Source: Sulfurospirillum multivorans DSM 12446 (GTDB lineage: Bacteria > Campylobacterota > Campylobacteria > Campylobacterales > Sulfurospirillaceae). From it: a stretch of DNA of 64,000 nucleotides. A program made the position numbers and the translations under genes. This document shows, piece after piece, positions 20,210 through 36,875 of this stretch (positions are counted from its first letter, which is position 1; every line of letters begins with the position of its first letter). The DNA lies in the NCBI RefSeq assembly GCF_000568815.1, contig NZ_CP007201.1, positions 2,613,654 to 2,677,653 on the forward strand, written 5' to 3'. Below the pieces are notes generated by a model. The model saw nothing but the letters and a program-made list of their open reading frames with translations. It did not search any database and was not told where the DNA came from.

Positions 20210-21322
20210 GTGTTAAAAAAAGGTGAAATTAAAATGATAAAGAAGTTTTTAGCTGAGGGTTTGAGTAAGAGTGCCATTGCACGAAAGTTAGGTATTTCAA
20301 GAGATACCGTAAGGCGTTACGCCAATCTTCCTGATGATTATGTTCCTCATATTAATCGACCTCCTGTCATCAATAGTGTTGATCCTTATCTACCGCATAT
20401 TGCCAAGATGTTAGAGATGGCAGAAGCGACGAAAAGTGAAATCCCTTTAACGGTTATTTATGAAGAGATTAAGAAGCTAGGCTATGAGGGAAGTTTGCGT
20501 TGGTTGCAGCAAGTTATCCAAAGATATGAGTTAAGAAGTCGAGCCAAATTGGATGAACCTATCATTCGCTTTGAAACCAAACCTGCCCAACAGATGCAAG
20601 TCGATTGGATAGAGTTTCCAAAGGATAATTTATCAGCATTTGTGGCAACGATGGGATATTCTAGGGCTTCGTATGTGGAATATGTCAATAATGAGAAGAT
20701 AGAGACGCTCATTGGATGCCATATGAATGCCTTTAGCTACTTTGGAGGTGTTCCAACGGAGTGTTTGTATGACAATATGAAAACGGTTATTTTAGGACGG
20801 AATAGTTATGGCAGAGGCAAACATAAACTCAATCCACTCTTTGAGGACTTTGCCAAACACTGTGGCTTTAGCATCAAAGTCTGCAAACCCTACCGTGCCA
20901 AGACCAAAGGAAAAGTAGAGAGATTTAACCATTATCTACGGTATAACTTTCATAATGGATTGATAGTGAGACTTTCTATGAAGCATTATGCATTAACGCT
21001 GGATAATGCGAATGCAGAAGTGCTCAAATGGTTGGATAATACCGCCAATAAACGCATCCACCAAACAACATTACAGATACCATTTGAATTATTAGCACAA
21101 GAGCAGCTGCAACTGCGTCCTGTGCCTAAAGCCTATCAAGGAATCCACCCTAAAGCTTTGATTGAAAGTGTAGCTAAAAAATATACGCCAATCAATTCAT
21201 ACCATGACATCGATAAGCTCTACATTCCCCATCGTGACATTCAATGCTACGATGAGTTTATCCCGATCGTTGCCAATATTATTCTTCCAGTTGGATTATA
21301 CGGTGGTGCATTATGGAATTAA
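20210..21322 (+). CDS. istA: IS21 transposase IstA
   Basis: 370-residue DDE transposase. The N-terminal helix-turn-helix (LSKSAIARKLGISRDTVRRY, about 20-39) binds the ends. The catalytic core shows MQVDWIEF (first Asp), CLYDNMKTV (second Asp) and KGKVERFNHYL (Glu). Starts with GTG at 20210, five bases after AAGGAG. Overlaps istB by 10 bp. The reading frame is intact, so the element may still be active. Confidence 0.96.
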   Translation: MLKKGEIKMIKKFLAEGLSKSAIARKLGISRDTVRRYANLPDDYVPHINRPPVINSVDPYLPHIAKMLEMAEATKSEIPLTVIYEEIKKLGYEGSLRWLQQVIQRYELRSRAKLDEPIIRFETKPAQQMQVDWIEFPKDNLSAFVATMGYSRASYVEYVNNEKIETLIGCHMNAFSYFGGVPTECLYDNMKTVILGRNSYGRGKHKLNPLFEDFAKHCGFSIKVCKPYRAKTKGKVERFNHYLRYNFHNGLIVRLSMKHYALTLDNANAEVLKWLDNTANKRIHQTTLQIPFELLAQEQLQLRPVPKAYQGIHPKALIESVAKKYTPINSYHDIDKLYIPHRDIQCYDEFIPIVANIILPVGLYGGALWN

Positions 21323-22131
21323 TTGTATCCATTGAAGCACTCTGTAAAGAGCTGAATCTCTCCACCATTAGTACACACTATCATGAGATAGCAACAACAG
21401 CAGCCAAAGAGAATTGGCAGTATGTTCAGTTCCTTGAGGAACTCTTACGCCAAGAGGTGGATAATCGCTTAGGACGCTCCAAAAACACATTGACAAAGCT
21501 TGCAGGCTTCCCCGTTATTAAAACCCTAGAGCAATTTGATTACACTTTCTCAGTAGGCGTAAACAGAAAACAGATTGAAGAGTTATCCAATCTCACCTTT
21601 GTAAAGAAGCATGAGAATATCATCCTCTTAGGTGAAAGCGGTGTGGGTAAAACCCATCTGGCTATTGCTCTAGCATTAAGAGCTGTACAACATCGCTACA
21701 AAGTGAGATTTACCACCATCAGTGAACTCTTAAGCAGTGCCAATAGAGCTAAAAAAGAGAAAAAATACGATAGCTTTCTCAAATCCATCACAAGCCCATC
21801 GGTTCTTGTTATCGATGAGATTGGATACTTTAATATGAGTAAAGAAGAAGCTAATCACTTTTTTCAAATTATCTCTAAACGCTATGAAAAAAGCTCCACC
21901 ATCTTTACATCAAATTTGGTATTCAGTAAATGGGTTCAAGTATTTGCAGGGGATAAAATCGTTACAACAGCTATTTTAGATAGAGTATTACATCACTCAC
22001 ATATCATCAATATTCAAGGAGACAGTTACCGACTTAAAGAGAAAAAACTAACAGGAGTTTTACACTCAGAAATCTATAAGTTTGAAGCTAAATCTTCAAA
22101 CCTAGAAGGTCAAAATTCAGAGGTGGTTTAA
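21313..22131 (+). CDS. istB: IS21 helper ATPase IstB
   Basis: 272-residue AAA+ ATPase that assembles on target DNA and recruits IstA. The Walker A motif LLGESGVGKTHLA is near residues 107-119, and Walker B VLVIDEIGYFNM near 162. The ATG lies inside the 3' end of istA, the usual coupling in IS21. Intact. Confidence 0.95.
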   Translation: MELIVSIEALCKELNLSTISTHYHEIATTAAKENWQYVQFLEELLRQEVDNRLGRSKNTLTKLAGFPVIKTLEQFDYTFSVGVNRKQIEELSNLTFVKKHENIILLGESGVGKTHLAIALALRAVQHRYKVRFTTISELLSSANRAKKEKKYDSFLKSITSPSVLVIDEIGYFNMSKEEANHFFQIISKRYEKSSTIFTSNLVFSKWVQVFAGDKIVTTAILDRVLHHSHIINIQGDSYRLKEKKLTGVLHSEIYKFEAKSSNLEGQNSEVV

Positions 22132-22189: not shown

Positions 22190-22504
22190 GCAATGTTGTT
22201 TCCATCTAATTTAGCATGACTTATAAACACTTTTTGTTGCTTATCCGTCAAACACTTACAAATGAAATGAGCCAAATTTAAAATCATTGTGTCTAACACA
22301 TTTTTTGAATCATAAAGTGAACAAGATTTATCATAAAATAGGGGCAATGTTGTTTCCATCTAATTTAGCATGACTTATAAACACTTTTTGTTGCTTATCC
22401 GTCAAACACTTACAAATGAAATGAGCCAAATTTAAAATCATTGTGTCTAACACATTTTTTGAATCATAAAGTTGAACAAGATTTTTATCATTAAAATATG
22501 TGCT
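22190..22504. repeat. Tandem duplication of about 154 bp at the right flank of the IS
   Basis: 22190-22343 repeats 22344-22504. About 130 bp are identical, starting GCAATGTTGTTTCCATC. At their distal end the first copy differs from the second only by short losses in runs (AAGTGAAC for AAGTTGAAC, GATTTATC for GATTTTTATC, CATAAAA for CATTAAAA), then joins GGGG and the next copy. Both copies encode the same TIR-protein fragment on the minus strand. The run-length differences look like base-calling errors or a slippage scar. Confidence 0.88.
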
Positions 22505-23524: not shown

Positions 23525-24157
23525 ATGAAAGAGCCTTCACATACGATCATCACGATCAGTCGCCAAATTGGAAGTGGTGGTGCGTTTATCGGACAGAAAT
23601 TGGCAAAAGAACTGGGCATGAGTTATGTTGATCGAGAGATCATCACGCAAGCGGCGAAAGAGTTTTCTCTTGTAGAGGAAGACCTTGAATCTTTGGATGA
23701 AAAAACCCCTTCATTTTGGCAATGCTTCTTTCAATCAAGCATTTGCAGTCCTGACGTTTACCTTCCACCGCAACTCTTTGTACCAACGGAAGAGGCGATT
23801 TTTAAAGTTGAGACCAAGATTATCAAACAAATTGCAAAAGATCGCTCTGCTATTATCATCGGGCGATGTGGCTCACACATCTTGCGTGACAATCCCAATC
23901 ACCTGAGTATTTTTTTACATGCAGACGCTGCTTTTCGCAAAAAACGTATCGAAGAGCTTTACAAGGTTTCGAGAAAAGAAGCGGAGAGAATGATCGAGCA
24001 AAGCGATGGTGAGCGAGCGCGTTACCATCAGCTCTTAGTAGAAAAACCGTGGAGTGATGCAAGCCAGTACGATCTGTGCGTCAACACATCAAAAATAGGG
24101 ATTGACAGCGCCATTGCGCTGATTCGCCAGACGATAGAGCGTTACCAAAACCGCTAA
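23525..24157 (+). CDS. Cytidylate kinase-like family protein
   Basis: 210 residues of the P-loop NTPase fold. IITISRQIGSGGAFIGQKLA is a variant phosphate-binding loop as in cytidylate-kinase-like proteins (PF13189 type). MSYVDREIITQAA and IIIGRCGSHIL are further conserved blocks; the C-terminal lid has SDGERARYHQ. The true substrate of this group is not established; a nucleotide or an unrelated small molecule are both possible. Promoter TATACT at 23486-23491 and AAGGAG at 23509-23514 precede it. It stands alone, facing the iron gene cluster. Confidence 0.8.
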   Translation: MKEPSHTIITISRQIGSGGAFIGQKLAKELGMSYVDREIITQAAKEFSLVEEDLESLDEKTPSFWQCFFQSSICSPDVYLPPQLFVPTEEAIFKVETKIIKQIAKDRSAIIIGRCGSHILRDNPNHLSIFLHADAAFRKKRIEELYKVSRKEAERMIEQSDGERARYHQLLVEKPWSDASQYDLCVNTSKIGIDSAIALIRQTIERYQNR

Positions 24158-24166
24158 AAGAGGGGC

Positions 24167-24505
24167 TTATGCCTCTTTTGGCTTTGGTTTGCGTATTCGT
24201 TTAGGCTTCGTTTCAGAGGCAACGACTGTTTCACTCGTACTTTCAGCTTTGTGTGCCACTTTGACACTGCTTTTTTTAGACGGCTGATAAAGCATGTGGT
24301 GCCAGAGTGAAAAACCAACAAGCGCCACACCTGCACCAATGTGAAGATTTTTCATAATCTTAGACTTCATCCCAAAAGAGGTACCGATCACAATTGCCAT
24401 TGAAGCGGTCATACCGATCTTTGCGACCTCTTTTTTTGTATCTAAGTCCCACGTTTTAAAGCTTGGTAGTTTTAGCTCTTTTTTTGTCAAATTTTCTTTT
24501 TGCAT
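24167..24505 (-). CDS. Two-helix membrane protein of unknown function, iron cluster
   Basis: 112 residues from the ATG at 24505, chosen because AGGA lies 7 nt upstream; an ATG at 24520 is also possible. Two membrane helices at about 33-52 and 58-80 (GMTASMAIVIGTSFGM; NLHIGAGVALVGFSLWHHMLY) precede a long Lys/Arg-rich tail (KPKRIRKPKPKEA). The gene overlaps the 3' half of a 39-residue ORF in another frame and lies downstream of a Fur-type operator. Part of the ferrosome-like cluster by position only. Function not known. Confidence 0.7.
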   Translation of the reverse strand: MQKENLTKKELKLPSFKTWDLDTKKEVAKIGMTASMAIVIGTSFGMKSKIMKNLHIGAGVALVGFSLWHHMLYQPSKKSSVKVAHKAESTSETVVASETKPKRIRKPKPKEA

Positions 24506-24575
24506 TTTTTCCTGTCTCATACGTTAACGCCAAGGTTAAAACCGCGGCAATTCCAAGGGGAAAGAGAAGAGGCAT
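24456..24575 (-). CDS. 39-residue single-helix membrane protein overlapping the next gene
   Basis: MPLLFPLGIAAVLTLALTYE followed by a basic tail (KNAKRKFDKKRAKTTKL). It has AAGGA 7 nt before the ATG at 24573-24575. It begins downstream of the palindrome at 24586-24606 and overlaps the 112-residue gene by 50 nt in a different frame. The hydrophobic N-terminus plus positive tail is typical of a small inner-membrane protein. It would be lost by length cut-offs. No family recognised. Confidence 0.6.
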   Translation of the reverse strand: MPLLFPLGIAAVLTLALTYETGKNAKRKFDKKRAKTTKL

Positions 24576-24588
24576 GTAAATCCTTTTA

Positions 24589-24603
24589 TGATATAAGTTA
24601 TCA
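24589..24603 (-). promoter_or_regulatory. Fur-type operator upstream of the 39-residue ORF
   Basis: TGATA-TAAGT-TATCA, embedded in a longer palindrome with 8-bp arms, TTATGATA and TATCATAA (24586-24606). It lies 14 nt upstream of the small ORF start, between it and the stop of the P1B-6 ATPase gene. Same 15-bp pattern as the other operators in this island. Confidence 0.7.
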
Positions 24604-24634
24604 TAATTATATGACCCCTCCCCTAAGACTTAGC

Positions 24635-26734
24635 TTAGCTTTTTTCGATACGAATTTTTTGCATGGAATTGAGTAATAATCCAATCGTCGTTCCATTATG
24701 CAAAAAGGCTGTTTTTACAGGACTGAGTAAGCCCACCGCCGCACCCATTAAGATAAAACTATTGATGCCAACGGTAGCGTTAAAGTTACTCTGAATGCGC
24801 GCCATCGTTTTATTCGCCAAGATTTTGGCTTCCACAACCGCATCGATGTCATCTTTGAGCAAGCTAATATCTGCCGTTGCTTTGGCGATGTCAGCGCCTT
24901 TGTACATGCTAATGCCTACATTGGCGTTCATAAGTGCGGGGGCGTCATTGATGCCATCGCCTATAAACGCGACATGCTTGCCACTCTCTTTGAGCGCTTG
25001 CACGATGTTGGATTTATCGGTCGGTAGCAGTCTTGCATACACCGTGTCAATGCCCAGCTCTTTGGCTAAGGCTTGCGCTTTATCTTCCACGTCACCTGTA
25101 AGCATAACGATCTCTTTTGCCCCTAATTTTCTTAGTTTCAAAAGGGCTTCTTTGGCATTGGCGCGTACACGATCAACCATACCAATGGTGCCTAAAAGCT
25201 TGTTATCATACGCGATATAGAGCAAAATTTTGCCATTTTCCAAACACTTTTCGATCTTAGCTTCGTGTTCGCTAAAAGAGACCTGCTCATCTTCTTCCAA
25301 GAAGTGACGACTTCCGATGATCGCCTCTTTGCCGTTGATCTGTGTGCGAACGCCGTGCGCTACGATAAACTCAACCTCTTCATGGTGCATGTGCACAAAT
25401 CCACGCTCTTTCGCCGCTTTGACGACGGCTTCAGCGACAGGGTGGAAATAGTGCTCTTCGGCACTTGCCGTGAGATTTAAAATCGCATCTTTACTCCACG
25501 CTTTATCGAACGAATAAATCTCGACCACTTCGAGCTCACCGTGCGTCAGCGTGCCCGTTTTATCGAAAATAAACGTATCGACATGCGAAAGCGCTTCGAG
25601 TGCTTTTGCCCCTTTGATGAGGATGCCATGATGCCCTGCAATGGAGAGCGAATTTTTAAACGCAACGGGTGTGGCGAGTTTGAGCGCACACGAGTAGTCT
25701 GCTTGCAAAACTGCCGCAACACTTGCCATATCACGACGTATCAGATACGAAAGTCCTGCCATTCCTAAGGTAATGGGAACGAGTTTATCGGCTAAGTGCG
25801 TGGCTTTAAGACCAATGGCTGACTTTTCATCGAGGGAGCTTTTGATGTAGTGTCTGATGCGTTGCGTTGCCGTGTCATCGCCTACTTGCTCCGCCCAGAT
25901 GCGAATACGCCCTGCTTCGACAATGGTACCTGAGATAACCCGTCCACCGCGCTCTTTTTTCACAGGCTCTGCTTCGCCCGTCATCGAAACTTGATTGATC
26001 GACGCGGTTCCATCGATGATATGCCCATCAATCGGAATCGTATCTCCAGCACCTACAATGACGATGTCGCCGACTTTAACCTCAGAGGTACTGATACGTT
26101 TTTCCGTGCATTTCCCGTTCTCTTCAACTTCGACCCACGCCTCGTCCACATTAGGTTTGGCGAGTTCTTTGATGAGATCATCGCTTTTGTGTACCGTGGT
26201 CTCTTCGATGTATTCACCGATTTCAAGCATCAGATTCGTACTATTGGCCGCGGCGTAATCACGACGGGCTAAAGAGACACCGACCGCCATCGCTTCGAGG
26301 ACTTTAGAGGTTAACCCTTCGCTAAAAAGCTCAATCATTCCCTCTTTTAAAAGGGGTAAACTTGCAAGGGTACTCACGGCTAACTTAATCTTGGGCTGAG
26401 GAATGAATGGCTGAAAGGCTAGTGCCATACTTGAGCGCACAATGCCTTTGAGGCTTGGACCCTCGTCGTGGTCATTAAAACACGCGTTTATCGAGGCATC
26501 ACAGATTTGATATTTTGAAATATCAATCGTTTGAAGGTGTGCTAAAAGCGCTTCGGCGTTCAGGTTTTCACCCTCAAAAACAACCGAGCCAATTTTAGAA
26601 TTGATACGAACCTCACGCACACCCGCGATGACCTTCAAATCCGTGGTAAGACTATGCGTATTGATCTGCTTAAGCGCAGGAGTTACATAACGCAGTCGCT
26701 GGGACGTTTGGTGAATCAGGCGTGTTTTGTGCAT
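24635..26734 (-). CDS. fezB: P1B-6-type ATPase, ferrosome FezB-like
   Basis: 699-residue metal-transporting P-type ATPase. A degenerate HMA-like N-terminus (about 1-80) is followed by the actuator with SMTGEAEP near 250, the membrane motif SCALKLATP near 348-356, the phosphorylation site DKTGTLTHG at 391, and GDGINDAPAL near 600. The replacement of the usual CPC by SCA places it in the group I know as P1B-6, the transporter that fills ferrosomes (FezB in Desulfovibrio, Shewanella and Rhodopseudomonas). It closes an operon of small membrane, ferritin-like and HMA-like genes, 4 bp after the previous one. The ATPase call is secure; the ferrosome role is inferred from family and context. Confidence 0.8.
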   Translation of the reverse strand: MHKTRLIHQTSQRLRYVTPALKQINTHSLTTDLKVIAGVREVRINSKIGSVVFEGENLNAEALLAHLQTIDISKYQICDASINACFNDHDEGPSLKGIVRSSMALAFQPFIPQPKIKLAVSTLASLPLLKEGMIELFSEGLTSKVLEAMAVGVSLARRDYAAANSTNLMLEIGEYIEETTVHKSDDLIKELAKPNVDEAWVEVEENGKCTEKRISTSEVKVGDIVIVGAGDTIPIDGHIIDGTASINQVSMTGEAEPVKKERGGRVISGTIVEAGRIRIWAEQVGDDTATQRIRHYIKSSLDEKSAIGLKATHLADKLVPITLGMAGLSYLIRRDMASVAAVLQADYSCALKLATPVAFKNSLSIAGHHGILIKGAKALEALSHVDTFIFDKTGTLTHGELEVVEIYSFDKAWSKDAILNLTASAEEHYFHPVAEAVVKAAKERGFVHMHHEEVEFIVAHGVRTQINGKEAIIGSRHFLEEDEQVSFSEHEAKIEKCLENGKILLYIAYDNKLLGTIGMVDRVRANAKEALLKLRKLGAKEIVMLTGDVEDKAQALAKELGIDTVYARLLPTDKSNIVQALKESGKHVAFIGDGINDAPALMNANVGISMYKGADIAKATADISLLKDDIDAVVEAKILANKTMARIQSNFNATVGINSFILMGAAVGLLSPVKTAFLHNGTTIGLLLNSMQKIRIEKS

Positions 26735-26738
26735 AAAG

Positions 26739-27041
26739 TTACGCTTCTTTAGCCGCTAACTCAGCTTTAGCATCTTCAAAACGCTCTTTCATCTCTTCGA
26801 TGCCTGCTTGGAACATTTCAGTGCCTTTGGCAATCGTTTTGAAAAGATTTTTTTGCGCTTTTTCATTGGTCAATACATACGCACCTACTGCTCCAATCAG
26901 TGCGCCGATCACGAACTGTTTGGTGTTAAAGGCGCCAAAAAAATGCTCAGGATTGCTCAACATTCCGCCATCATTTTTAGCTTCGTTGGCGGCTTCGCTT
27001 CCGATGTAAGGGTTTTTGTCCAGTGAATTTAATAGCTCCAT
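26739..27041 (-). CDS. Small membrane protein with glycine-zipper helix, ferrosome-like cluster
   Basis: 100 residues. One membrane helix at about 43-57, FVIGALIGAVGAYVL, rich in small residues, then an amphipathic helical tail (KNLFKTIAKGTEMFQAG, then acidic/basic repeats to 100). The true start is the ATG at 27041, which shares its A with the TAA of the upstream gene (TAATG), so translation is coupled; the longer frame to 27095 lies inside that gene. The helix nearly repeats the C-terminal helix of the ferritin-like protein two genes upstream. Probably a membrane component of the organelle; function unproven. Confidence 0.75.
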   Translation of the reverse strand: MELLNSLDKNPYIGSEAANEAKNDGGMLSNPEHFFGAFNTKQFVIGALIGAVGAYVLTNEKAQKNLFKTIAKGTEMFQAGIEEMKERFEDAKAELAAKEA

Positions 27042-27400
27042 TAGTTCGCTTCCTCTTCTGTAATTAGTGCATCCATGATGTGTGTGCATGCACATGATTT
27101 GCTGTAAAGTTTTTCAACACCGTAAATACCTGCAACGCCGACCGATAAAGCGCCTAAAAGCCCTACCCAGCTGCTTCTTCCAAGCGCATTGGCAGCTGCA
27201 ATCGCACTGCCTGTAGCGATGCCACCTTGAACGGTGAGTTTGAGGCTCTGTTTAATCGCATCTTCTTTGCTCAGCTCTGCTTGTTTATATTTGCTGTACG
27301 AAAGGGCGGTTGCAACCATACCAGCCGCCAACGCACCACTAATGACATGCCCACTAACACTACGAGGCGTTCCTGTATTAATCGCGATTTTAGGCGTCAT
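27041..27400 (-). CDS. Three-helix membrane protein, ferrosome-like cluster
   Basis: 119 residues with three hydrophobic segments at about 15-34 (VSGHVISGALAAGMVATALS), 56-74 (VQGGIATGSAIAAANALG) and 79-98 (VGLLGALSVGVAGIYGVEKL), all rich in Gly/Ala, then a CACTH motif (103-107) near the C-terminus that could bind metal. Start ATG overlaps the previous stop by 4 bp. It reminds me of small magnetosome and ferrosome membrane proteins, but I cannot assign it to a named family. Confidence 0.7.
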   Translation of the reverse strand: MTPKIAINTGTPRSVSGHVISGALAAGMVATALSYSKYKQAELSKEDAIKQSLKLTVQGGIATGSAIAAANALGRSSWVGLLGALSVGVAGIYGVEKLYSKSCACTHIMDALITEEEAN

Positions 27401-27630
27401 TTTGCCTCCTCTTTTGTCGTTACATGTAAAGCTTTTTTAGACTTGATACACTCAATGGTTCCATCCACACTTTTCTTCACTTCTTCAGCGACCTCTTTAG
27501 CTTTACAGACACCTTGCTCGATGCCCTCTTTAAGCTCTTTTTTCTTACTAAATGCGATAACGGCTGCGGCACCTGCAAGGGCACCTACGATAAATGGCAA
27601 CATTGTTTTCTCCTTAAATTGATCTTTCAA
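27397..27630 (-). CDS. Small membrane protein with basic linker, ferrosome-like cluster
   Basis: 77 residues: one N-terminal helix at about 11-27 (LPFIVGALAGAAAVIAFS), a Lys cluster (SKKKELKEG) and an amphipathic helix with two Cys (C42 and C61). It matches the glycine-zipper style of two neighbours. Ends 4 bp inside the next gene; starts 3 bp after the ferritin-like gene. An internal TTACATGTAA encodes LHV near its C-terminus. No family recognised. Confidence 0.7.
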   Translation of the reverse strand: MKDQFKEKTMLPFIVGALAGAAAVIAFSKKKELKEGIEQGVCKAKEVAEEVKKSVDGTIECIKSKKALHVTTKEEAK

Positions 27631-27633
27631 AGC

Positions 27634-28314
27634 TTAGGCTTCTGGTTTTTCATCTTCTGTCGTGGTCTCTTCATCAGGGGCGATGATGCCGCCGAGTACA
27701 CTTGCTCCCACAGCGCCGATGAGGGCTCCTGCGATAAACGAAAAATTGGTGCTTAAGAGCTTAGTGATCTCCTCTTGGTTGATCTCACCTTTGGCAATTT
27801 TTTGTGCCATTTGGCTGAGTTCGCCCCATTGTCCCATCATGCCTTCAAGTGCCGCCATCGACTCTGGTGCAGCAGTGGAGGAAGCATAGGATGTCACGGC
27901 GTTTCGAAACGCGGGTAAATGGTTATTGTATGAAGCGGCTTGAAGCCTGTAAAAAACATCTTGAACCTCTGGATATTCGTTTACATGTAAAAGAAGTTCA
28001 TCGTAAAGCTGGATATTTTGAATCTCTGCGGCGACACCTAGTTCATAACATTCACGAAGGGTGCTAGGAAGCGTAATCCTCTCTGGCACAGTAGTCGTAA
28101 GTGCGATGTTATGCGCCGATGCAACGGCTAAAAGGGCTTTTTGGTGGGTCTGTTCGGCTTGAATGATATTGACAAAAGGTGTAACAGCGCCAAATTTTTC
28201 AATGACCGCACTGTACGTCTCATACGCTTTGACTTCATCATCAAACGCGCGTTGTAGCGCCTCTTCTAGCGCTTTGTTTTCGTGCACGGGTGGGGTTACT
28301 TTCATATCAGACAA
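27634..28314 (-). CDS. Ferritin-like protein with a C-terminal membrane helix
   Basis: 226 residues. Residues 15-140 form a four-helix ferritin-like bundle: AFDDEVKAYETYSAVIEKFG gives an E..E helix, QAEQTHQKALLAVA gives ExxxH, and AAEIQNIQLYDELL and the following ASYNNHLPAFRNAV give the second pair of metal-binding helices. This is the pattern of the DUF2202/rubrerythrin-like group. A hydrophobic segment at about 193-207 (FIAGALIGAVGASVL) adds a membrane anchor unusual for soluble ferritins. An acidic tail follows. In the cluster it could oxidise or store iron at a membrane. Overlaps the HMA-like gene by 8 bp. Confidence 0.75.
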   Translation of the reverse strand: MSDMKVTPPVHENKALEEALQRAFDDEVKAYETYSAVIEKFGAVTPFVNIIQAEQTHQKALLAVASAHNIALTTTVPERITLPSTLRECYELGVAAEIQNIQLYDELLLHVNEYPEVQDVFYRLQAASYNNHLPAFRNAVTSYASSTAAPESMAALEGMMGQWGELSQMAQKIAKGEINQEEITKLLSTNFSFIAGALIGAVGASVLGGIIAPDEETTTEDEKPEA

Positions 28315-28624
28315 TCTCCTTTGCGAGTTGGTCTATGATCGTTATAATTTCATCGAGCTTTTCGCCTTTGACTAAATTTTCCCACAAATGATCGGGAAAA
28401 ATAGCGGAGTCATACTCGATCGTTAAAGAGCCAATCATTTTGTTAATCTTAATCGATTTGATGCCATTAATGCGAGCAGGCAATGCTTCGATGTCTTCAA
28501 TACCGACGTGATGCTTATGCTCTTTAATCTTAGGACTCACGCGCAAACGAATACGCCCTTTGATGTGATGAACAATGGAAAAATAGCTTCCAAGTTCAAC
28601 AAGTTTTTCTGCTGTAACGTTCAT
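28307..28624 (-). CDS. HMA-like small protein, first gene of the ferrosome-like operon
   Basis: 105 residues, cytosolic. The pattern VHHIKGRIRLRVSPKI then INGIKSIKINKMIGSLTIEYD is the strand-helix layout of HMA_2-type domains, but with no CxxC metal site. Its GRxR-like motif recurs at the N-termini of both P-type ATPases of the cluster (HVQGRVRIKS and HQTSQRLRYV). It may therefore interact with the same partner or membrane as those termini. A putative promoter lies at 28634-28677. Members of this kind accompany fez-type ATPases in other bacteria, as far as I recall. Confidence 0.7.
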   Translation of the reverse strand: MNVTAEKLVELGSYFSIVHHIKGRIRLRVSPKIKEHKHHVGIEDIEALPARINGIKSIKINKMIGSLTIEYDSAIFPDHLWENLVKGEKLDEIITIIDQLAKEIV

Positions 28625-28633
28625 AACTTTCCT

Positions 28634-28677
28634 TTGATAATTACATTGTAAGGTGGGAAGAATAAATATTAGCTTAA
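28634..28677 (-). promoter_or_regulatory. Possible promoter and weak Fur half-site of the ferrosome-like operon
   Basis: On the minus strand TTAAGC (28677-28672) resembles the -35 area (TTTAAGT-like in Campylobacterota) and TACAAT (28649-28644) the -10, spaced 22 bp. The plus-strand text TGATA-ATTAC-ATTGT (28634-28648) matches only one arm of the operator pattern. AAAGG is 5-6 nt before the start codon. Weak evidence. Confidence 0.35.
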
Positions 28678-28683
28678 TATTTT

Positions 28684-30858
28684 TTAAGAATTATTATCAA
28701 TGCCCCAAGCTATGCGGGAAGAGTTTGCCATGATGCCAACGGTATGGGCGATGTGCATCGCTCCTGCCATCACAGGAGAGAGTGCTCCAAAGGCGGCAAA
28801 TGCAACAGAGGCTAGGTTGGTGGAAGTGCCGATCCAGTAGTTTTGAGCGATTACATGTAAGCTTTGAGAGGAGAGGTCATAGAGCTTGAGAATATCACGA
28901 GGGTTACTGTTTGTAATCGCGATATTGGAGACTTCAATGGCGGCTTCACTGCCACCGCTCGCAAAAGAGATCGCGACATCAGACACACTCATCGCAATCG
29001 TATCGTTAATGCCATCGCCCACCATCACAACGCGGCGGTATTTGGCTTTGAGCGCTTTGATGACGTCCGCTTTTTCTTCGGGCATCACGTTGGCGTAGAT
29101 CTCATCAAAACCGTATTTTTCACCAAAAGCATGCGCGACTTTTACTTCATCGCCCGTAAGCAGTACCAGATGTTTAACCCCTCGTGCTTTAAGCCCTTCA
29201 AGCATCGCTTGCGTGCCCTCGCGCACCTCGTGTTCAAACGCCATACAGCCTAAGACGTTTGTGCCCACACTCACGTAAACAACCGTTTGCCCCAGTTCCA
29301 AATGGCGTTGTGCAACACGGTGCAATGCGGTCACATTAACGCTATTTTGAGTGAGTAATTTGGCATTTCCAACCAAGATCACTGTGCCTTGATGCACCAG
29401 TTTTACCCCTAGTCCAGGAAGGATTTCACTTGGCTCTTCATCGTTACATGTAATGCCCAAATGCTTCGCTTCTTTGAGGATGGCTTCTGCGATAGGATGG
29501 TGATTGCGCTGTTCTGCGCGTGCTGCGTAAGTGATAAGTTCTTCCAAACTCACCCCTTTGTGTAGATGCGTCTCAACAAGGCGAGGTTGACCGGTGGTGA
29601 GTGTGCCTGTTTTATCAAAACAGAACGCTTCACTTTGCGCGACCAGCTCCAAACTCTCGCCCCCTTTGATGAGAATACCCTGCTTCGCACCTCTGGCAAT
29701 CCCCGCACTAATCGCCGTACTCGCCGCCAAAATCGTTGCGCACGGGCAGGACATGACGATCATCACCGAAAAGGCTCGCAGCCATGAACCTGTCACCAAG
29801 AAGGTAGCACCCGTTAAGAACGTTCCTAATTTAAGCAGTTTTGCCGCCAAACGATCGGCGGAGAGTTCACTCGGTGATTTGAGGGCTAAAGAGGCTTCGA
29901 CTTTGGCGATGACACGGGAGAGATAGGTATTTTCCCCAATGGCACTCACCCGAATGTAGATGCGTCCACGATGCAACAGCGTATTGGCATACACCACATC
30001 GCCTTTTTCTTTAAAAGCAGGCTCACTGCGCCCATTGATGGAAGCTTCGTCGATCTCGGCTTTGCCGTCGATGATTTCGCCATCAACGGGAATTTTCTCA
30101 CCACTTCTAGAAACCACAATATCGCCCTCTTTGATGCTCTCTAAATCCACTTCCAATTCGACATCATCGACTAAAACATACGCTTTTTTCATCTCCAAAG
30201 CGATCAAATTGTGAATCTGTCGTTTGGATTTTTCGGCGGTGTACTCTTCTAAAAGCATGCCGCCACGTAAAATATAGATGATCTCAAATGCTGCCATCAC
30301 TTCGCCCCCAAAGATCGCAGCGATGAGTGAAAATGCCATAAACGATTGAAGCGTAAAACGTTTGGCTTTAACATCGCTGTAAGCTTCTTGAAGCAGTGGA
30401 ATCGCCGCAAATAAAGCAACGGCGGCAGTTAGAGAAAAAGGGCTAGCCACTACGACGATGCCCAAAAGCGTCTCTTTGATAAACAGGTACAGCGCGTAGC
30501 CTGAGAGCACGCCAAAAGTGATGAGTTTGTGTCTCCACGTCTGAGGATGTTTCGCGGCGACTTCACAACGCGAACAGCTGGTACAGGAAGGACAATAGCT
30601 CTCTTCTAACACTGTAACCGTCGTTGATGGGGGTAATTTTAAATTGAAGTGATTGGAAATCAGCGCTAAAAGAGCTTCGAGGCTTGTTTGGGTGTGATCA
30701 TAGACTAAAATCAGTGAACGAGCAAGAGCATTGTGTCGAAATTCTTGAACGAAGGGCTGAAGCAAGGTGAAGAGTTGCGCTTCGTTTGCTGAGCTAAAGT
30801 ACTCTGATTTGATTCTAACGCGACCTTGAACGTGGCTTTTAATGGCTATTTTGAGCAT
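28684..30858 (-). CDS. P1B-type metal ATPase (CPC type) with N-terminal Cys cluster
   Basis: 724 residues from the ATG at 30858; a longer frame to 31008 only reads into the Fur-family gene. An HMA-like N-terminus (MLKIAIKSHVQGRVRIKS) is followed by CPSCTSCSRC at 89-98, giving four closely spaced Cys. The catalytic part is complete: SCPCATILAAS in the membrane, DKTGTLTTGQ, and GDGINDTIAM. The CPC motif points to export of Cu(I), Ag, or Zn/Cd-type ions, though a role with iron in this context is open. It overlaps the Fur-family gene by 20 bp, so both are coupled. Similar in size and layout to the SCA-type ATPase of the same cluster, giving two pumps in one cluster. Confidence 0.88.
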   Translation of the reverse strand: MLKIAIKSHVQGRVRIKSEYFSSANEAQLFTLLQPFVQEFRHNALARSLILVYDHTQTSLEALLALISNHFNLKLPPSTTVTVLEESYCPSCTSCSRCEVAAKHPQTWRHKLITFGVLSGYALYLFIKETLLGIVVVASPFSLTAAVALFAAIPLLQEAYSDVKAKRFTLQSFMAFSLIAAIFGGEVMAAFEIIYILRGGMLLEEYTAEKSKRQIHNLIALEMKKAYVLVDDVELEVDLESIKEGDIVVSRSGEKIPVDGEIIDGKAEIDEASINGRSEPAFKEKGDVVYANTLLHRGRIYIRVSAIGENTYLSRVIAKVEASLALKSPSELSADRLAAKLLKLGTFLTGATFLVTGSWLRAFSVMIVMSCPCATILAASTAISAGIARGAKQGILIKGGESLELVAQSEAFCFDKTGTLTTGQPRLVETHLHKGVSLEELITYAARAEQRNHHPIAEAILKEAKHLGITCNDEEPSEILPGLGVKLVHQGTVILVGNAKLLTQNSVNVTALHRVAQRHLELGQTVVYVSVGTNVLGCMAFEHEVREGTQAMLEGLKARGVKHLVLLTGDEVKVAHAFGEKYGFDEIYANVMPEEKADVIKALKAKYRRVVMVGDGINDTIAMSVSDVAISFASGGSEAAIEVSNIAITNSNPRDILKLYDLSSQSLHVIAQNYWIGTSTNLASVAFAAFGALSPVMAGAMHIAHTVGIMANSSRIAWGIDNNS

Positions 30859-31333
30859 TGTGGCACCTTTCGCATACACCATACAATGTGAGCGTATGAT
30901 GGGTTCCTGTAAATTTATGGGAGGCGAGTATTTCGTCTTGTTCCGCTTCGATAGCCGTGTCGCAAAAACGGATGATGGCACCACAGGTGAGGCAGACCAA
31001 GTGGTCATGATGCACGGCGCGTTTTAGTTTGTATTTTTTCATCTTTGAAGGGTAGCTCAGCACCGTACTGACCATATCAAGGCTCTCAAAAAACGCCAGA
31101 ATTTTATAAATGGTGGCAAGCGAAATCCGCATGCACTGCTTCGTGTAAAGCAGCTGATGGATCTGTTCAGCACTCATGTAAACATCGCACTCATAGAGTG
31201 CTCGAAGCAGAAGCTCACGTTTTGCCGAATGGCGAATCCCTGCTTTGGCAGTCAGTTTTAAAAAATGGGTGTAAAAGTGTTCAAACGAAGAAGAGCAAAA
31301 ATTCTCTTGCTCTTCTAAAAGGTTCGCTGACAA
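30839..31333 (-). CDS. Fur-family metalloregulator
   Basis: 164-residue repressor. The winged-helix domain shows AGIRHSAKRELLLRALYE, the recognition region ISLATIYKILAFFESLDMV, and the dimerisation domain HHDHLVCLTCGAIIRF with a CxxC, then CERCHNAQ as the second CxxC. This is the Zn-binding layout of Fur/PerR/Zur. Which metal or redox signal it senses cannot be told here. Start codon is TTG at 31333 with AAGGA overlapping the porin stop. It is the likely local controller of the two ATPases and the ferrosome-like operon. Confidence 0.88.
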   Translation of the reverse strand: MSANLLEEQENFCSSSFEHFYTHFLKLTAKAGIRHSAKRELLLRALYECDVYMSAEQIHQLLYTKQCMRISLATIYKILAFFESLDMVSTVLSYPSKMKKYKLKRAVHHDHLVCLTCGAIIRFCDTAIEAEQDEILASHKFTGTHHTLTLYGVCERCHNAQNSH

Positions 31334-31342
31334 CCGCTTTCC

Positions 31343-32464
31343 TTAAAAAGTATAAGCGATGTGCGCTTTAAAAGCATCGTAACTTTGAGCGTTATCATCG
31401 TTGTCAATGTTCACGTAGATCAAAGAGGCTTCAAGGTTTTTAACGATCTCATAACCAACGCTTACATCAAGCTCTTTTTCTTTGAATTTTAAACCTGCGT
31501 CTTCATACTTGGTTTGACCATACAGTGCAGAGAGTTTGACCCCTTCAAGTTCGTATTCGGCGCGAACATACGGTGTTTTTGCATCGGTTGCAAAGACATA
31601 ATTTCCCTCTTCAAACGGAGATTGATCGCCAAATGACTCAATGCCACCTGTTCCGTCTTTATCGGTTTTCATGTAACCAAGACCGAGGTTGAATCCTGCA
31701 ACTTCCACACCTTGTTCCAACTGCATAAAAGAGCCATCTTTGACATCGACCACATCGCTACTTACACTCACATAATGCGCCATCGTTGTGGTTTTGACCT
31801 CTTCACTTGGCTCTAGGCTCAGTGTTGCTTTCAAACCATACGCGCTTAAAAGGTCACTCCCGTAATAAAGATACGGATTAAGCTCCAAAGCCTCGATCGG
31901 TGTGTATTTGGCTTCGAGCATGTAGATGCCATCATTGCCGTTCATTTTGGTAAAAGATTCCGAAATTTCATCGATGTCAATGACCGCTTGTCTGCGTGCC
32001 CATGCCATGCTGAGCACTAAGTTTTCCACCGCAGTGATTTCAGCGCTGACACCATCGACGTAATCCGTTAACCAGTTAAAGTCCACCGCTTGGCGACCCA
32101 GAACAAGCGCACCTAAACCTTCGTGCTCCACTTTGATGTACGCTTCAGAAAGTGCGCTGCGATCAGCGATGGCATTTTTGAAATCGTCATCGTTTTTCTC
32201 GCTGGTTTTCACACTGCCCCAACCCGAAACACCTAGGCTTACACCATTATAAGGTGCGGTAACAAAACCCACATTCAAATAGCCATTGGAAAAACCATCA
32301 TCGACGCTGCCGCCTTTACGATCGTTATTAACGCCAAACCAGCCCACGGTTCCTGTAAGTTCACCTTGTGTGAAAACCTCTTCTAAAGTGGTTGCTTCTG
32401 CAGCAAAACCCAGTGAACTCCCCAAAACAACCGCCGCGACAATACGTGAAAAATGTATTTTCAT
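31343..32464 (-). CDS. Outer-membrane porin, Campylobacterota major porin/OprD-like
   Basis: 373 residues with a signal peptide (MKIHFSRIVAAVVLGSSLGF, cleaved near AAEA) and regular alternating beta strands ending in AYTF, the C-terminal aromatic signal for BAM-dependent insertion. LVLGRQAVDFNWLTDYVDGV is the typical conserved block of this porin group. Two Fur-type operators lie upstream. Only 9 bp separates it from the Fur-family gene, so porin, regulator and both pumps may share a message. A role in admitting iron or a chelate is possible. Confidence 0.85.
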   Translation of the reverse strand: MKIHFSRIVAAVVLGSSLGFAAEATTLEEVFTQGELTGTVGWFGVNNDRKGGSVDDGFSNGYLNVGFVTAPYNGVSLGVSGWGSVKTSEKNDDDFKNAIADRSALSEAYIKVEHEGLGALVLGRQAVDFNWLTDYVDGVSAEITAVENLVLSMAWARRQAVIDIDEISESFTKMNGNDGIYMLEAKYTPIEALELNPYLYYGSDLLSAYGLKATLSLEPSEEVKTTTMAHYVSVSSDVVDVKDGSFMQLEQGVEVAGFNLGLGYMKTDKDGTGGIESFGDQSPFEEGNYVFATDAKTPYVRAEYELEGVKLSALYGQTKYEDAGLKFKEKELDVSVGYEIVKNLEASLIYVNIDNDDNAQSYDAFKAHIAYTF

Positions 32465-32480
32465 CCATGCTCCTTTATGA

Positions 32481-32495
32481 TGATAACTATTATCG
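32481..32495 (-). promoter_or_regulatory. Fur-type operator 1 upstream of the porin
   Basis: TGATA-ACTAT-TATCG (one mismatch from TGATA-N5-TATCA), 17 nt upstream of the porin start. The minus-strand GATAAT inside it could be the -10, with TTAAGC at 32512-32517 as a -35-like element 17 nt away. Confidence 0.65.
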
Positions 32496-32529: not shown

Positions 32530-32544
32530 TGATACTTATTATCA
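32530..32544 (-). promoter_or_regulatory. Fur-type operator 2 upstream of the porin
   Basis: TGATA-CTTAT-TATCA, a perfect match to the pattern, 35 bp beyond operator 1 and just before the stop of the next gene upstream. Two operators in tandem suggest strong iron repression. Confidence 0.7.
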
Positions 32545-32549
32545 AATAT

Positions 32550-33002
32550 TTATCTCGGTACTTTGCGTTTGCGATAGCCATAAACTCTATAACCGCTTGT
32601 CCCAAGAAAGAGTGCGAAAAACCCAAAGGAGGCGAACCCCATCGTGCGAAATGCTCTCTCTTTTTGCGACGTCGCTACCTTTTGAAAGCCATTTTGTGGA
32701 GCAGGTCCCTCTTCCACGACGTCCTGATCACCCACGTAGAGATAAACCCAATAGGACTCCTGCGGAATCTTTACATGTAAAGGTTTCCCCGCCTCTAAAA
32801 AGAGCTCTAAAAGCACGCGCTTGTCGATCATAGAGATGAGTGCGACTTTGTTGCCTTCGAGTTTTTTTCCAGAACCTTTCATCTTGCCTTCGATTGCAAT
32901 CGTGTCGTTTTCAAGAGGCGTGAGCAGAAGAGTAATTCCTTCAATTTTATGCGCCCAAAGGTGTGTCGCTAAAAGCATAATGAACCACAGTTTAATACCC
33001 AT
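32550..33002 (-). CDS. Periplasmic/membrane protein of unknown function next to the PepSY protein
   Basis: 150 residues from the ATG at 33002. Signal-peptide-like N-terminus (GIKLWFIMLLATHLWA, cleaved before HKIEG), a beta-rich exported domain, and a C-terminal membrane helix (GFASFGFFALFLGTSGY) with a basic end (RKRKVPR). The layout matches carboxypeptidase-like or DUF4198-like exported domains of metal systems, but I cannot assign it. It overlaps the preceding PepSY gene by 11 bp and is followed by the porin's operators. Confidence 0.65.
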   Translation of the reverse strand: MGIKLWFIMLLATHLWAHKIEGITLLLTPLENDTIAIEGKMKGSGKKLEGNKVALISMIDKRVLLELFLEAGKPLHVKIPQESYWVYLYVGDQDVVEEGPAPQNGFQKVATSQKERAFRTMGFASFGFFALFLGTSGYRVYGYRKRKVPR

Positions 33003-34552
33003 CAAAGATTCCTTTGCGCTCATAACGGTAAAAAAGCTCTTTTTTATCAACCGCTTTTGCCAACACGAAACAGAGCAAGGCGCTGATTAAAAACATGGCA
33101 TCCATGCCAAAAAGCGTCCATGCCCCTTTTTCAAAACTATCCCAGATGAAAAACCCACTTTTAAGCCCATGAAACAGCACGGCAAGCACCAAAAGCCACG
33201 AGGTCGCTTTCAGCATACGTCCAATGATCGTAACAATGGAGCGCTCAAACACCGTGTAAAAGAGCCAAAACGACCAAAACGCATAAAAAGCACCTCGTAT
33301 CCACACCTCTTTATCGAAAAGATCAAACGCTAAAAGCCACTGCAAAAAAAGCACCAGCGCACTGCTAGGCAAAATGCCGATCAGCACTGCGATGCTAACA
33401 CGGTTCGTAAGATCCCCTAGCCACCCTTTTTGATGCAGATTTTTCTCCGCCCACAAAAGATAGCCTGTTGCCAAACAAAACGCTAGCGCGACACCAAAAC
33501 AGGCTAAAACAATGCGCACGCCTAGCGTCTCATCAGGCACAAAGTGAAGGTAGTAAAAAAGGGAAAGCGCTTGGTTGATGCCATGCATATTTTCCAAACC
33601 ACGCTTTTCCACCACGGCACCATTTCTCGCATCAAGGGTGATGCTAAGCCGATTGATCCGCCCTGATTGTGCCACACTGTTTTTATCGAACCCACGAAAG
33701 CGTACTTTTGCCGCGTCGGTTCCATAATGATAGAGCGTTGCGTTGGTAATCGCTAGGCTTGGATAGTGCTCATTCGCAATGGTTTGAAGCGTTGAAAAAG
33801 GAAAGCATAATTGCCTTGGTTTCAGAGCTTTTATAAACGGGTTGTGCAAAGATGATGGGGCTTACGAGTTTGCGCATAGAGCTCTCCTCTTTGCTGCTTG
33901 CACTCCAAGCAAAAGGGTGAGAATAAGAGAGCATTAAGCCCAAAAAAGCTCCCGTGCAGGCAAACACAAGCGCGTAAGGAATGATCCCAAGCCCCACGAT
34001 TTTATGCCACGAAAGCCACCTGCTTTTCCACCCCTCTTTTGGCCTCTTTGTCTGCGTGCGCTTATAAAGGTAGAGCCAAAAACCGCCCAAGGTTAAGAAC
34101 ACGATGCCGATGCTCATGATGCCCATCAGCGGCATACCGATGAGTGGAATCACCACGCCCGTATGCAACTCGTTAAAAAAAGTGGAAATCAAATTCTCCT
34201 CTTTGGAGAGTTTGATCACTTCGTTGGTGAGGGGGTTAAGGTAGAGGCTATTTTGAGACTCAGACGAGAGTTTCAAAAGCGGATCGCGAAAGCTTGGAAG
34301 GGTGATGTCAACGGGTTTTAAGCCCAAAAGGTGCTGTTTTTCTAACAGCTCGCCCAAAAGAAGATCGATGTTAAACGCATGCTCTGACAAAGGAACAAAA
34401 TGGCGCGATGGCGACTCCCACACTTTAAGATAGGGCATAAAAAAGGTGAGCGTTCCAAAGTAGGTGCTCATGTAAAAAAGGAAAAGTACCACGAGTCCGA
34501 TGATCGTGTGCGAGCGGTGTAGGAATTTAAACCGTAGTGTTTTTGAAAGCAT
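32992..34552 (-). pseudogene. PepSY-associated membrane protein, split by one extra base
   Basis: Two frames make one protein. Frame A starts at the ATG 34552 (MLSKTLRFKFLHRSHTIIGL, with first membrane helix) and runs to ETKAIMLSFF; frame B continues as FSTLQTIANEHYPSL to the stop at 32992. Removing one base from the A run at 33795-33799 joins them into a 519-residue protein, the normal size of PepSY-TM proteins with four to six membrane helices. These are ferric-reductase or siderophore-reduction membrane partners in many TonB loci. It may be a sequencing error. The upstream part of the longest frame (34801-34553) is not coding. Confidence 0.82.
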
Positions 34553-34560
34553 GAAAACTC

Positions 34561-34857
34561 CTACACAAACGCGATAATACAGGCATTGAGCAGTGCCATC
34601 AACGCGATTTTGAGCGTTACATGTAAAAGGTTTTTGGAGAAAAGCAACCAAAACCCAAAACCGCACACCAACAGCGGAAAGAGAAACATCGAAGGGAAAA
34701 TGCGCTCTGCCATATCGCCCCACAAAAGGGCACTTAAGCTCGTACCACACAGGTACGCCAAGCCAAAAGCACCCACAATCGCCAAAACGCCGTGAGCCCA
34801 ACCGATAACGGTTTTGGGCTCTTGAGATAGACGGCTCATTTTAGAGAATAAGAGCAT
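34561..34857 (-). CDS. Small three-helix membrane protein, TonB receptor operon
   Basis: 98 residues with three hydrophobic helices (ahead of 40, about 50-70, 75-95). WAHGVLAIVGAFGLAYLCGT and FPLLVCGFGFWLLFS are characteristic of DUF3649-type iron-uptake accessory proteins found between a TonB receptor and a PepSY protein. Start could be the ATG at 34857 (2 bp after the receptor stop) or 34839; no clear ribosome-binding site distinguishes them. Confidence 0.65.
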   Translation of the reverse strand: MLLFSKMSRLSQEPKTVIGWAHGVLAIVGAFGLAYLCGTSLSALLWGDMAERIFPSMFLFPLLVCGFGFWLLFSKNLLHVTLKIALMALLNACIIAFV

Positions 34858-34859: not shown

Positions 34860-36875
34860 TTAAAATTCATACGAGAACGAGAGTTTGATGTTACGTCCAG
34901 GTTCATAGTCTGAGAGTGAAACACCACTGAGAAGTCTGTTTTCAGAGGCATGAGAGACGTAAGACTCATCAAAAATATTATCAACTCCTGCGATTAAGGT
35001 AAGCCCTTTAACGCTACTTGGTTTCCATTTCACCGCAATATCATGCACATCGTACGCCTCTTTGGTTTGTTGCGCGGCAATATACTGACGCTCTTCTTCC
35101 ATCACAAATAACGAATCCCACGAGAGTGAAAGGTTTTTCATAAACGCATAATCAAGGTTAACGCTTAAGCTGTCTCCCGGTTCTCTTTGCGTTGAAAGCC
35201 CTGTATTTCTAAATTTTGAGTTGGAGTGCGCATAGGTAATTAAAGAGCTAAGAGCGCCTATGTCATACACAAAACTTGCCTCAAAACCTTGAATATCAAG
35301 GGTTCCACCGTTGGTCATCTCCGCACTTGTACTGGTCGTCCATGTCGTGATAATGTAGTCATCAATACGTGTATCAAACACTTTGAAGCTAAAGCCAAGG
35401 TTTTTGGCACCCAGTGTGTTTTTGTTCTGATATTTAAACCCAACCTCTTTGTTAATGCCCGTTTCTGCTTTAAGACCAGAGTTATCATTGACATACATAC
35501 GGTTACTCGCTAGCACATCCACCATCTCAACACCTTTGTAAAGTGTTGTGGCACTTGCAATGAGGCTGAACGTGTCGGAAAGAGGATACTCCGCCGCCAA
35601 GCCGTAGGTAAATTTACTATCAGAGATTTCGCCATACACGCCATCGTATTGATAGTTGTTGTAACGAATTCCTGGGGTTAAGATAAAGCCATTGCTAAAC
35701 GTGATGGCATCTTCAACGTAAAGTGCACCCGTTTTGGCTTTCTCGTTTTCACCGTATTGCTCGCCACTCCACTCCACTTCGCTGGTTTGGGTATCGTATA
35801 AACCGCCATAGGTAAAGGTGTTATTTAAGCTTCCAAGCGCGATAGAAGACTGTGCTTTGGTGTTGATACCATAGTTTTTAACCACGCCATCCAAGAGTCC
35901 TTCATACGGGTTCATGCCAGCAGGTACTGCTCTGACACGTTGGGTGGTTCCATCGCGTTTTTCATAGCGTTGTAACTCATTTTCATTGCTGTAAATCGAG
36001 GTTTGTAAAAAGAGATTGTCGCCTAAATCAACTTGATGTTTGAGCGTGATCGTCTCTCTCGTATACTCAGTCGGATAGAGATAATTTCCCGTTGCAAAGA
36101 GGTTATACGCTTTGCCAAAATCAGGACGTGGCGCGTAATCGCCTTCGTCTTTGAGTTTATCGTACGAGAGTGTGATACGTTGTGCATCGCTGATGTCATA
36201 CCCAACTTTAATCAACGTATTGCCAACCTCACCATCGGTTCCAAAACTCTCTTCGCCTCTGCCATCTTCCCACTCATTCTTGTCCACATAGTGATGGTAC
36301 AGCAAAAGATCAACCTTATCGGTCACTTTGCCATACGCTGCCACGGAGCCACCAAGGCTGTCATTGGAGTTGTAATTGCCCTGAATTCGTGCGCCATACT
36401 CTTTGCCATCTTGCAAAAGGTCTTTGCCATCTTTGGTTTCAAACGCAACCGCACCACCCAAACCTCCATTGACAACCGAATTAGTGCCGACTTGCACATC
36501 TGCTTTTTTCAAGATGTCAGGGTTGACCAGCAAGTTACCGATGTGATGGAACATATTGACATTGGAAACTTTCGCGCCATCGATGCTAATATCGAGGTTT
36601 TCATCCTCCAAACCACGAATCGCAATACGGTTGTTGATCGAGCTGGTTCCTCCCACATCCACACCCGGAAGATCGCGCAAAAGATCGCTTAAGTGATCGG
36701 CCTGTTTGGTTTCAATCGAAGAACTTCCAAGATTGAGCGAGGAGCTGCTGACCTGTGTTTCCCACACTTCAACACTCTCTAACTGCTGATCTTCCGCCAT
36801 AGCAACACTGCATAAAAGCGTGGTTGTGACAAGTGATAACCTTAATGTCTGTTTTATACGGAGCGAATTTAACAT
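34860..36875 (-). CDS. TonB-dependent outer-membrane receptor
   Basis: 671 residues. Signal peptide with AMA cleavage near 27, then the TonB box region (QLESVEVWET), the plug (SDLLRDLPGVDVGGTSSI, NRIAIRGLEDENLDISIDG) and a 22-strand barrel ending SYEF. Probably imports a ferric chelate or heme-like compound; specificity cannot be read. First gene of the receptor-DUF3649-PepSY operon. A Fur-type operator lies 30 bp before the start and is shared with the divergent two-component system. Confidence 0.88.
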   Translation of the reverse strand: MLNSLRIKQTLRLSLVTTTLLCSVAMAEDQQLESVEVWETQVSSSSLNLGSSSIETKQADHLSDLLRDLPGVDVGGTSSINNRIAIRGLEDENLDISIDGAKVSNVNMFHHIGNLLVNPDILKKADVQVGTNSVVNGGLGGAVAFETKDGKDLLQDGKEYGARIQGNYNSNDSLGGSVAAYGKVTDKVDLLLYHHYVDKNEWEDGRGEESFGTDGEVGNTLIKVGYDISDAQRITLSYDKLKDEGDYAPRPDFGKAYNLFATGNYLYPTEYTRETITLKHQVDLGDNLFLQTSIYSNENELQRYEKRDGTTQRVRAVPAGMNPYEGLLDGVVKNYGINTKAQSSIALGSLNNTFTYGGLYDTQTSEVEWSGEQYGENEKAKTGALYVEDAITFSNGFILTPGIRYNNYQYDGVYGEISDSKFTYGLAAEYPLSDTFSLIASATTLYKGVEMVDVLASNRMYVNDNSGLKAETGINKEVGFKYQNKNTLGAKNLGFSFKVFDTRIDDYIITTWTTSTSAEMTNGGTLDIQGFEASFVYDIGALSSLITYAHSNSKFRNTGLSTQREPGDSLSVNLDYAFMKNLSLSWDSLFVMEEERQYIAAQQTKEAYDVHDIAVKWKPSSVKGLTLIAGVDNIFDESYVSHASENRLLSGVSLSDYEPGRNIKLSFSYEF

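Follow-up and report, generated by a model that had tools for sequence, protein, structure and literature searches.

A fez-like gene cluster with a tail-anchored ferritin-like protein in Sulfurospirillum multivorans and other Campylobacterota

Ferrosomes are membrane-wrapped iron stores in bacteria, and the fez operon of Rhodopseudomonas palustris reportedly corresponds to RPA2333-2338, as described by Grant et al. in 2022. Does the group of minus-strand genes at 24167-32464 in the stretch of the Sulfurospirillum multivorans genome analysed here (64,000 nucleotides of contig NZ_CP007201.1, called the window) encode such a store, and what would a ferritin-like protein with its own membrane anchor contribute to it? 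The initial annotation had proposed a candidate ferrosome cluster. We think it very probable that these genes are a multi-gene fez (ferrosome) operon in the form it takes in Campylobacterota, working by the mechanism proposed below, and the proposal is supported by the clade of the SCA-type pump, by the matching small genes and by the presence of a FezC-type cytochrome gene. The locus combines an SCA-type P1B ATPase lacking CPC, an operon of small membrane and HMA2 genes with fezB, and a DUF4405-like FezC. What is new is the conserved anchored ferritin; the ferrosome-type system itself is of a known kind.

The genes first annotated all lie on the minus strand at the positions given for them, and the locus is read from 32464 down to 24167 in the following order, where TM4 is the fourth transmembrane helix.

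31343 to 32464, minus strand: outer-membrane porin (Pfam Porin_4, E = 3e-9), probably the first gene of the transcription unit
30839 to 31333, minus strand: Fur-family regulator (Pfam FUR, E = 4e-27)
28684 to 30858, minus strand: P1B ATPase with CPC in TM4 (MSCPCATILAAST) and an N-terminal HMA2-like domain; accessory
28307 to 28624, minus strand: HMA2-domain protein, 105 aa (Pfam PF19991 HMA_2, E = 6.5e-10)
27634 to 28314, minus strand: tail-anchored ferritin-like protein of the DUF2202/rubrerythrin type (Pfam Rubrerythrin, E = 4e-5)
27397 to 27630, minus strand: small Gly/Ala-rich protein with a single transmembrane helix, its position kept in relatives; TTG start, with an ATG at 27603
27041 to 27400, minus strand: MamC-like small membrane protein, 119 aa (NCBIfam MamC)
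26739 to 27041, minus strand: YtxH-like protein with a single transmembrane helix (Pfam YtxH, E = 0.002, below the cut-off)
24635 to 26734, minus strand: FezB-type P1B ATPase of the SCA type (DYSCALKLATP in TM4, HNGTT in the last transmembrane helix)
24167 to 24520, minus strand: FezC-like (DUF4405-related) membrane protein (Pfam DUF4405, E = 0.015; H60 and H74)
24153 to 24182, no strand assigned: terminator-like inverted repeat after fezC with an 11-pair stem, the longest in the region, closing the unit

The genes from HMA2 to fezB form a compact module with intergenic gaps of -8 to +4 bp. HMA2 is its first gene, and is conserved among the loci compared. The ferritin-like gene starts with TTG; if it began instead at the ATG at 28305, a 1-bp gap would result. 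The MamC-like gene overlaps the small transmembrane gene by 4 bp, and the YtxH-like gene, begun at the ATG at 27041, overlaps its neighbour by 1 bp (a longer open reading frame begins at 27095) and is separated from the SCA-type ATPase by 4 bp. The widest gap among the genes first annotated is the 59 bp between the CPC pump, which likely starts at the ATG at 30858, and HMA2; fezB and fezC are separated by a 114-bp spacer that contains a Fur-box-like palindrome. The porin gene ends 9 bp ahead of the Fur-family gene, which it adjoins likewise in the related loci L037-L039. A scan for Sigma-70 promoters found sites no more frequent than in shuffled sequence. The order HMA2, ferritin, small transmembrane, MamC-like, YtxH-like, fezB recurs in the relatives examined, and on this ground the arrangement is far beyond chance. 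Every gene that the initial annotation had named is in place, namely the SCA-type pump, the HMA, ferritin-like and small membrane genes ahead of it, and the second P1B pump and Fur-family gene upstream; the set is larger than had been described, the porin upstream and the FezC-like gene downstream having been overlooked.

The ATPase at 24635-26734 has SCA, which we take to be the mark of P1B-6, in the TM4 motif DYSCALK in place of the CPC that characterizes P1B-1 and P1B-2. A tree built from 38 P1B sequences places it in a clade (support 100/100) with the DYSCALK pumps of other fez-type operons, from Vibrio, Photobacterium, Shewanella, Ferrimonas, Kluyvera, Hafnia, Chromatiales, Methylocystaceae, Azospirillum and other Campylobacterota, and within the clade it stands among the Campylobacterota and Azospirillum pumps. 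DYSCALK is present in 21 of the 23 rows of the clade. The CPC pumps from fez loci form a clade of their own (100/99), and the remaining P1B pumps of the Sulfurospirillum genome are placed elsewhere. The initial annotation had named a position outside P1B-6 as grounds for abandoning the ferrosome reading; the tree keeps the pump with the DYSCALK pumps and apart from the CPC pumps. Motif and tree also led us to reject a Cu/Zn exporter. We call the clade FezB because its operons share the layout of the ferrosome operons in the literature. The comparison draws on the best 80 matches of the contig scan for FezB, nearly all from Gammaproteobacteria, and does not extend to Desulfovibrio and Clostridioides FezB.

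The small genes match counterparts in the same operon order in Proteobacteria; lack of Fez homology had been foreseen as a possible objection to the ferrosome reading. Alphaproteobacterial operons (L057 from Azospirillum, with L179 and L180 from the order to which the Methylocystaceae metagenome-assembled genome belongs) comprise six genes, an HMA2-FezC fusion followed by HMA2, small transmembrane, MamC-like, YtxH-like and fezB genes. Through these three loci and the literature, rather than through R. palustris sequences, the Campylobacterota operon can be compared with the R. palustris/Azospirillum type, with which it shares the order from HMA2 to fezB and the FezC-like domain. It differs in that fezC is separate, lies after fezB and has its own Fur-box-like site, in that an anchored ferritin is added between HMA2 and the small transmembrane gene, and in often having a CPC pump upstream. 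Six fez genes are reported to give R. palustris CGA009 its ferrosomes (PMC12016538). In alphaproteobacterial loci L180 and L184, genes that are feoB/feoC-like by sequence lie directly upstream of fez. The Shewanella/Vibrio/Kluyvera operons have HMA2, YtxH-like, MamC-like, YtxH-like and fezB genes, together with a divergent second HMA2 gene; no ferritin-like gene and no fezC was found within them. By this gene-for-gene correspondence, the Campylobacterota module is the proteobacterial fez-type set with a ferritin-like gene added. The ferritin had been singled out at the start as an unfamiliar component, and rightly so, as none is present in the Shewanella/Vibrio operons examined or in any alphaproteobacterial operon read, and the anchored form is missing from most of the gammaproteobacterial fez-type operons examined.

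Published work identifies FezC as a DUF4405-type heme b cytochrome (PMC10979944). The FezC-like gene product is a predicted bis-histidine cytochrome, with H60 and H74 kept in 30/30 homologues and both also invariant when 13 sequences, the alphaproteobacterial fusions among them, are aligned separately. Ten of 13 FezC homologues match the DUF4405 model at E < 0.1, and a fezC gene could be called in 17 of the first 20 regions fetched; one of the three without it stops at a contig edge. In two loci the FezC-like protein carries a fused C-terminal SpoIIAA-like/STAS domain (L039:4949-5599 and L041:4508-5134). Three Gly/Ala-rich membrane proteins had been annotated ahead of fezB; the genes stand, and one of them more specifically matches the magnetosome MamC model (NF038051, E = 9e-7). 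Its 29.2 bits compare with an equivalog cut-off of 100, so the protein falls short of a MamC equivalog and would be at most a distant MamC homologue. Among 15 fez homologues, 11 are matched by the model, the best at E = 3e-9 and again below that cut-off. The likeness to MamC (Mms13) is thus that of a small membrane protein matched by the model, with scores far below the cut-off and no magnetosome genes seen at the window. The profile used for the small transmembrane proteins held ferritin open reading frames from a few loci, and its weak cross-matches were left out.

The ferritin domain of the 27634-28314 product spans approximately residues 10-147, and is followed by a C-terminal helix at residues 191-210. 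In the AlphaFold model the four-helix bundle has pLDDT >90, and Foldseek matches it to a bacterioferritin (5zur, E = 8e-4) and a diiron protein (2qqy, TMt 0.79); DUF2202 is matched in 12/21 ferritin-like homologues. The protein retains the ligand set E27, E54, H57, E97 and H132, and these five positions are kept in 17/26 Campylobacterota rows, in 3/3 anchored Chromatiales rows and in 8/8 soluble DUF2202 rows. The modelled four-helix fold and the Glu/His ligands place it in the DUF2202/diiron family. Among the 74 called open reading frames, the best match to the anchor helix (SFIAGALIGAVGASVL) is the transmembrane helix of the YtxH-like protein (QFVIGALIGAVGAYVL), scoring 56 against 35 for the next; in several relatives, not all, the YtxH-like neighbour is likewise the best or second match. 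As the protein has no signal peptide and an acidic tail, the ferritin domain of the Campylobacterota proteins is likeliest on the cytosolic side.

Sampling of 397 Campylobacterota genomes found FezB in 135, spread over 28 of 68 genera. The window ferritin-like protein finds 112 genomes, all within these 135, and in 112/112 the ferritin gene lies on the contig of fezB at a distance of 0.8-2.0 kb (median 995 bp); a chance neighbour was rejected on this basis. The apparent absence of ferritin from the other 23 fezB genomes is partly an artefact of searching with a single sequence, since among the 15 of their regions that were fetched, 9 hold a diverged copy in the slot and 6 have none. Adding the 9 diverged copies to the 112 gives at least 121 of the 135 Campylobacterota fezB operons with a ferritin. 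A complete fez module with anchored ferritin is also carried by a 133-kb Arcobacter plasmid (L060, CP129951.1).

Anchored ferritins occur a second time, in a few Chromatiales, bacteria of the purple-sulfur type. Within the order of the metagenome-assembled genome L111, fezB is present in 50/195 genomes and a DUF2202 ferritin in nine. Four of the nine genes lie directly before fezB (<50 bp, measured between match ends), with matches that extend across the anchor; in the remaining five only the soluble domain is matched, and none of these is beside fezB. The Chromatiales type (L111, L117, L132 and L186) therefore shares with the window a DUF2202 domain and C-terminal transmembrane helix inside a fez operon, but its ferritin gene directly precedes fezB, its domain groups with soluble DUF2202 proteins apart from the Campylobacterota ones (95/94, unrooted tree), and its tail is basic (L111:3152-3724, L117:7429-7968, L132:1123-1668 and L186:4951-5496). 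Together with the other operon position and a tail that is basic where that of Campylobacterota is acidic, this grouping would most simply be read as two separate recruitments, subject to the tree being unrooted. A single origin of all anchored ferritins is not favoured at 95/94, though the tree is unrooted and some of its rows are long.

Tentatively, and with somewhat less than an even chance of being right in all its parts, we propose that the ferritin, a tail-anchored diiron protein, is integral to the ferrosome membrane and physically joins ferritin and ferrosome storage. It would have been recruited twice, in Campylobacterota and in Chromatiales, from soluble DUF2202 proteins by gain of an anchor, and in some families of Campylobacterota would later have turned into a structural subunit blind to iron.

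Several observations weigh against the ferrosome reading or the part given to ferritin in it. Neither the DUF4405 match nor the YtxH match reaches its Pfam threshold. FezA has no assigned gene in the operon, and any small transmembrane gene might correspond to it. FezB is identified by the operons of its relatives and by statements in the literature, not by proven Fez sequences, and granules, metal specificity and heme binding are predicted from the genes. Beyond the anchor, the ferritin tail is acidic in Campylobacterota and basic in Chromatiales, which by the positive-inside rule would give opposite topologies. Finally, the sixth ferroxidase position, which lies three residues ahead of H132, is occupied by Tyr or Phe and offers no carboxylate, and 9/26 Campylobacterota ferritin rows have lost two or more ligands. 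The last two points raise the alternative that ferrosomes are made but that the ferritin-like protein performs no iron chemistry, being at most a structural subunit. The sixth ligand is missing in all homologues, the soluble DUF2202 rows likewise having no carboxylate there, and beside the 9/26 rows with further losses there are two 146-aa copies that have lost the anchor too. Yet the window protein retains the five other ligands, as do the rows counted above, the Campylobacterota ferritin is never found away from fezB, and anchored copies lie within the fez operons of two phyla. We regard a purely structural role as rather unlikely. The two 146-aa proteins, with ligands lost, still occupy the fez slot (L146:5272-5712 and L153:5412-5852).

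How the operon might be controlled is suggested by three Fur-box-like palindromes.

32530 to 32544, no strand assigned: Fur-box-like palindrome TGATACTTATTATCA, distal member of the pair upstream of the porin-fur unit, 1 mismatch to TGATAANNNTTATCA
32481 to 32495, no strand assigned: Fur-box-like palindrome TGATAACTATTATCG, proximal, upstream of the porin-fur unit, conserved in relatives
24589 to 24603, no strand assigned: Fur-box-like palindrome TGATATAAGTTATCA in the fezB-fezC spacer, 69 bp ahead of fezC

The twin palindromes upstream of the porin recur at equal spacing in L037, L038 and L039. The palindrome on the fezC side has equivalents in L037, L038, L039, L042, L046, L047 and L049, and perfect copies of TGATAANNNTTATCA precede fezC in L039, L042, L046 and L047. 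At up to 2 mismatches TGATAANNNTTATCA occurs 15 times in the window against a mean of 4.5 in shuffles, with 0/100 shuffles reaching 15. The conserved palindromes fit iron control by putative Fur sites. The Fur-family regulator of the locus is a divergent member, as its best NCBIfam Fur model gives 93 bits against a cut-off of 200. No Fur-box-like site was seen in more distant families (e.g. L051, L052 and L055), in which the control of fez may thus differ. In Clostridioides difficile, fezA and fezB are Fur-repressed (PMC12574912). One-mismatch palindromes are also present in the window at 36905-36919, 45496-45510, 48658-48672 and 58318-58332; the first is just upstream of a gene for a TonB-dependent receptor (34860-36875, gene start 36875), which suggests an iron-uptake neighbourhood.

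In the mechanism that we propose, iron shortage would lift Fur repression and the fez proteins would be made. The small membrane proteins would define or shape the vesicle membrane, FezB would pump Fe2+ from the cytosol into the vesicle, and FezC may move electrons across the vesicle membrane, setting the Fe2+/Fe3+ state. The anchored ferritin-like domain would bind or oxidise Fe2+ at the vesicle surface, and could hand Fe2+ to, or buffer it for, pump and mineral. In lineages with lost iron ligands the ferritin-like protein would be left only as a structural subunit.

The same genes could instead serve efflux and detoxification of iron or another metal at the cytoplasmic membrane, with no vesicle. 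The FezB-type and CPC pumps would export metal while the anchored ferritin limited free iron. P-type ATPases of the FezB-pump class usually export, and two pumps are adjacent at the locus. A membrane-tied ferritin-like domain beside a transporter also recalls MbfA, a membrane-bound ferritin whose mutant is defective in iron export (PMC4902296); as described in the literature, MbfA fuses its own transporter domain, whereas here a single-helix anchor stands beside a separate P1B pump. Against efflux, the small-gene set matches the kinds of operon reported to make ferrosomes, the Fur-box-like sites suggest induction by iron shortage and not by excess, and the SCA pump lacks the CPC of Cu/Zn/Cd exporters. 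An MbfA-like efflux operon is on balance quite improbable.

Whether the CPC pump belongs to the ferrosome operon is a separate matter. It is optional in fez loci, being present in 6/20 of the relatives fetched first and missing from the close relatives L037 and L038. Together with the Fur-family gene it might form a metal-resistance unit of its own, with the fez operon no more than a neighbour, and its absence or deletion in most relatives speaks for this. When present, however, it keeps its place and neighbours across several families (L039-L041, L043, L044, L053, L143, L144 and L156), and it has a weak HMA2-like N-terminus, as FezB does. Independence of the two units is accordingly doubtful, though it retains appreciable weight. 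In L008/L037 the region around the fur-HMA2 junction retains just the two ends of the CPC pump, an internal deletion.

Elsewhere in the window, a PepSY-type membrane gene at 32992-34801 is in two overlapping frames of 343 and 285 aa. It is one open reading frame of 519-521 aa in L037 and L039, which suggests a frameshift or sequencing error near 33.8 kb. A perfect 90-bp two-copy tandem duplication (19907-20083) and a 97% 154-bp one (22190-22498) flank an IS21-type istA/istB pair (20210-22131); the 154-bp duplication is located at a hypothetical gene's end, which it doubles.

The locus would extend the fez system to Campylobacterota, a phylum for which we found no ferrosome report among the papers searched, though the survey tables of the primary papers may list it. 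The MamC-like gene adds a link between the fez system and magnetosomes. Ferrosomes have been presented as an alternative to storage of the ferritin type, and here one operon would encode both chemistries, with the anchored ferritin a candidate for iron loading or oxidation at the ferrosome membrane.

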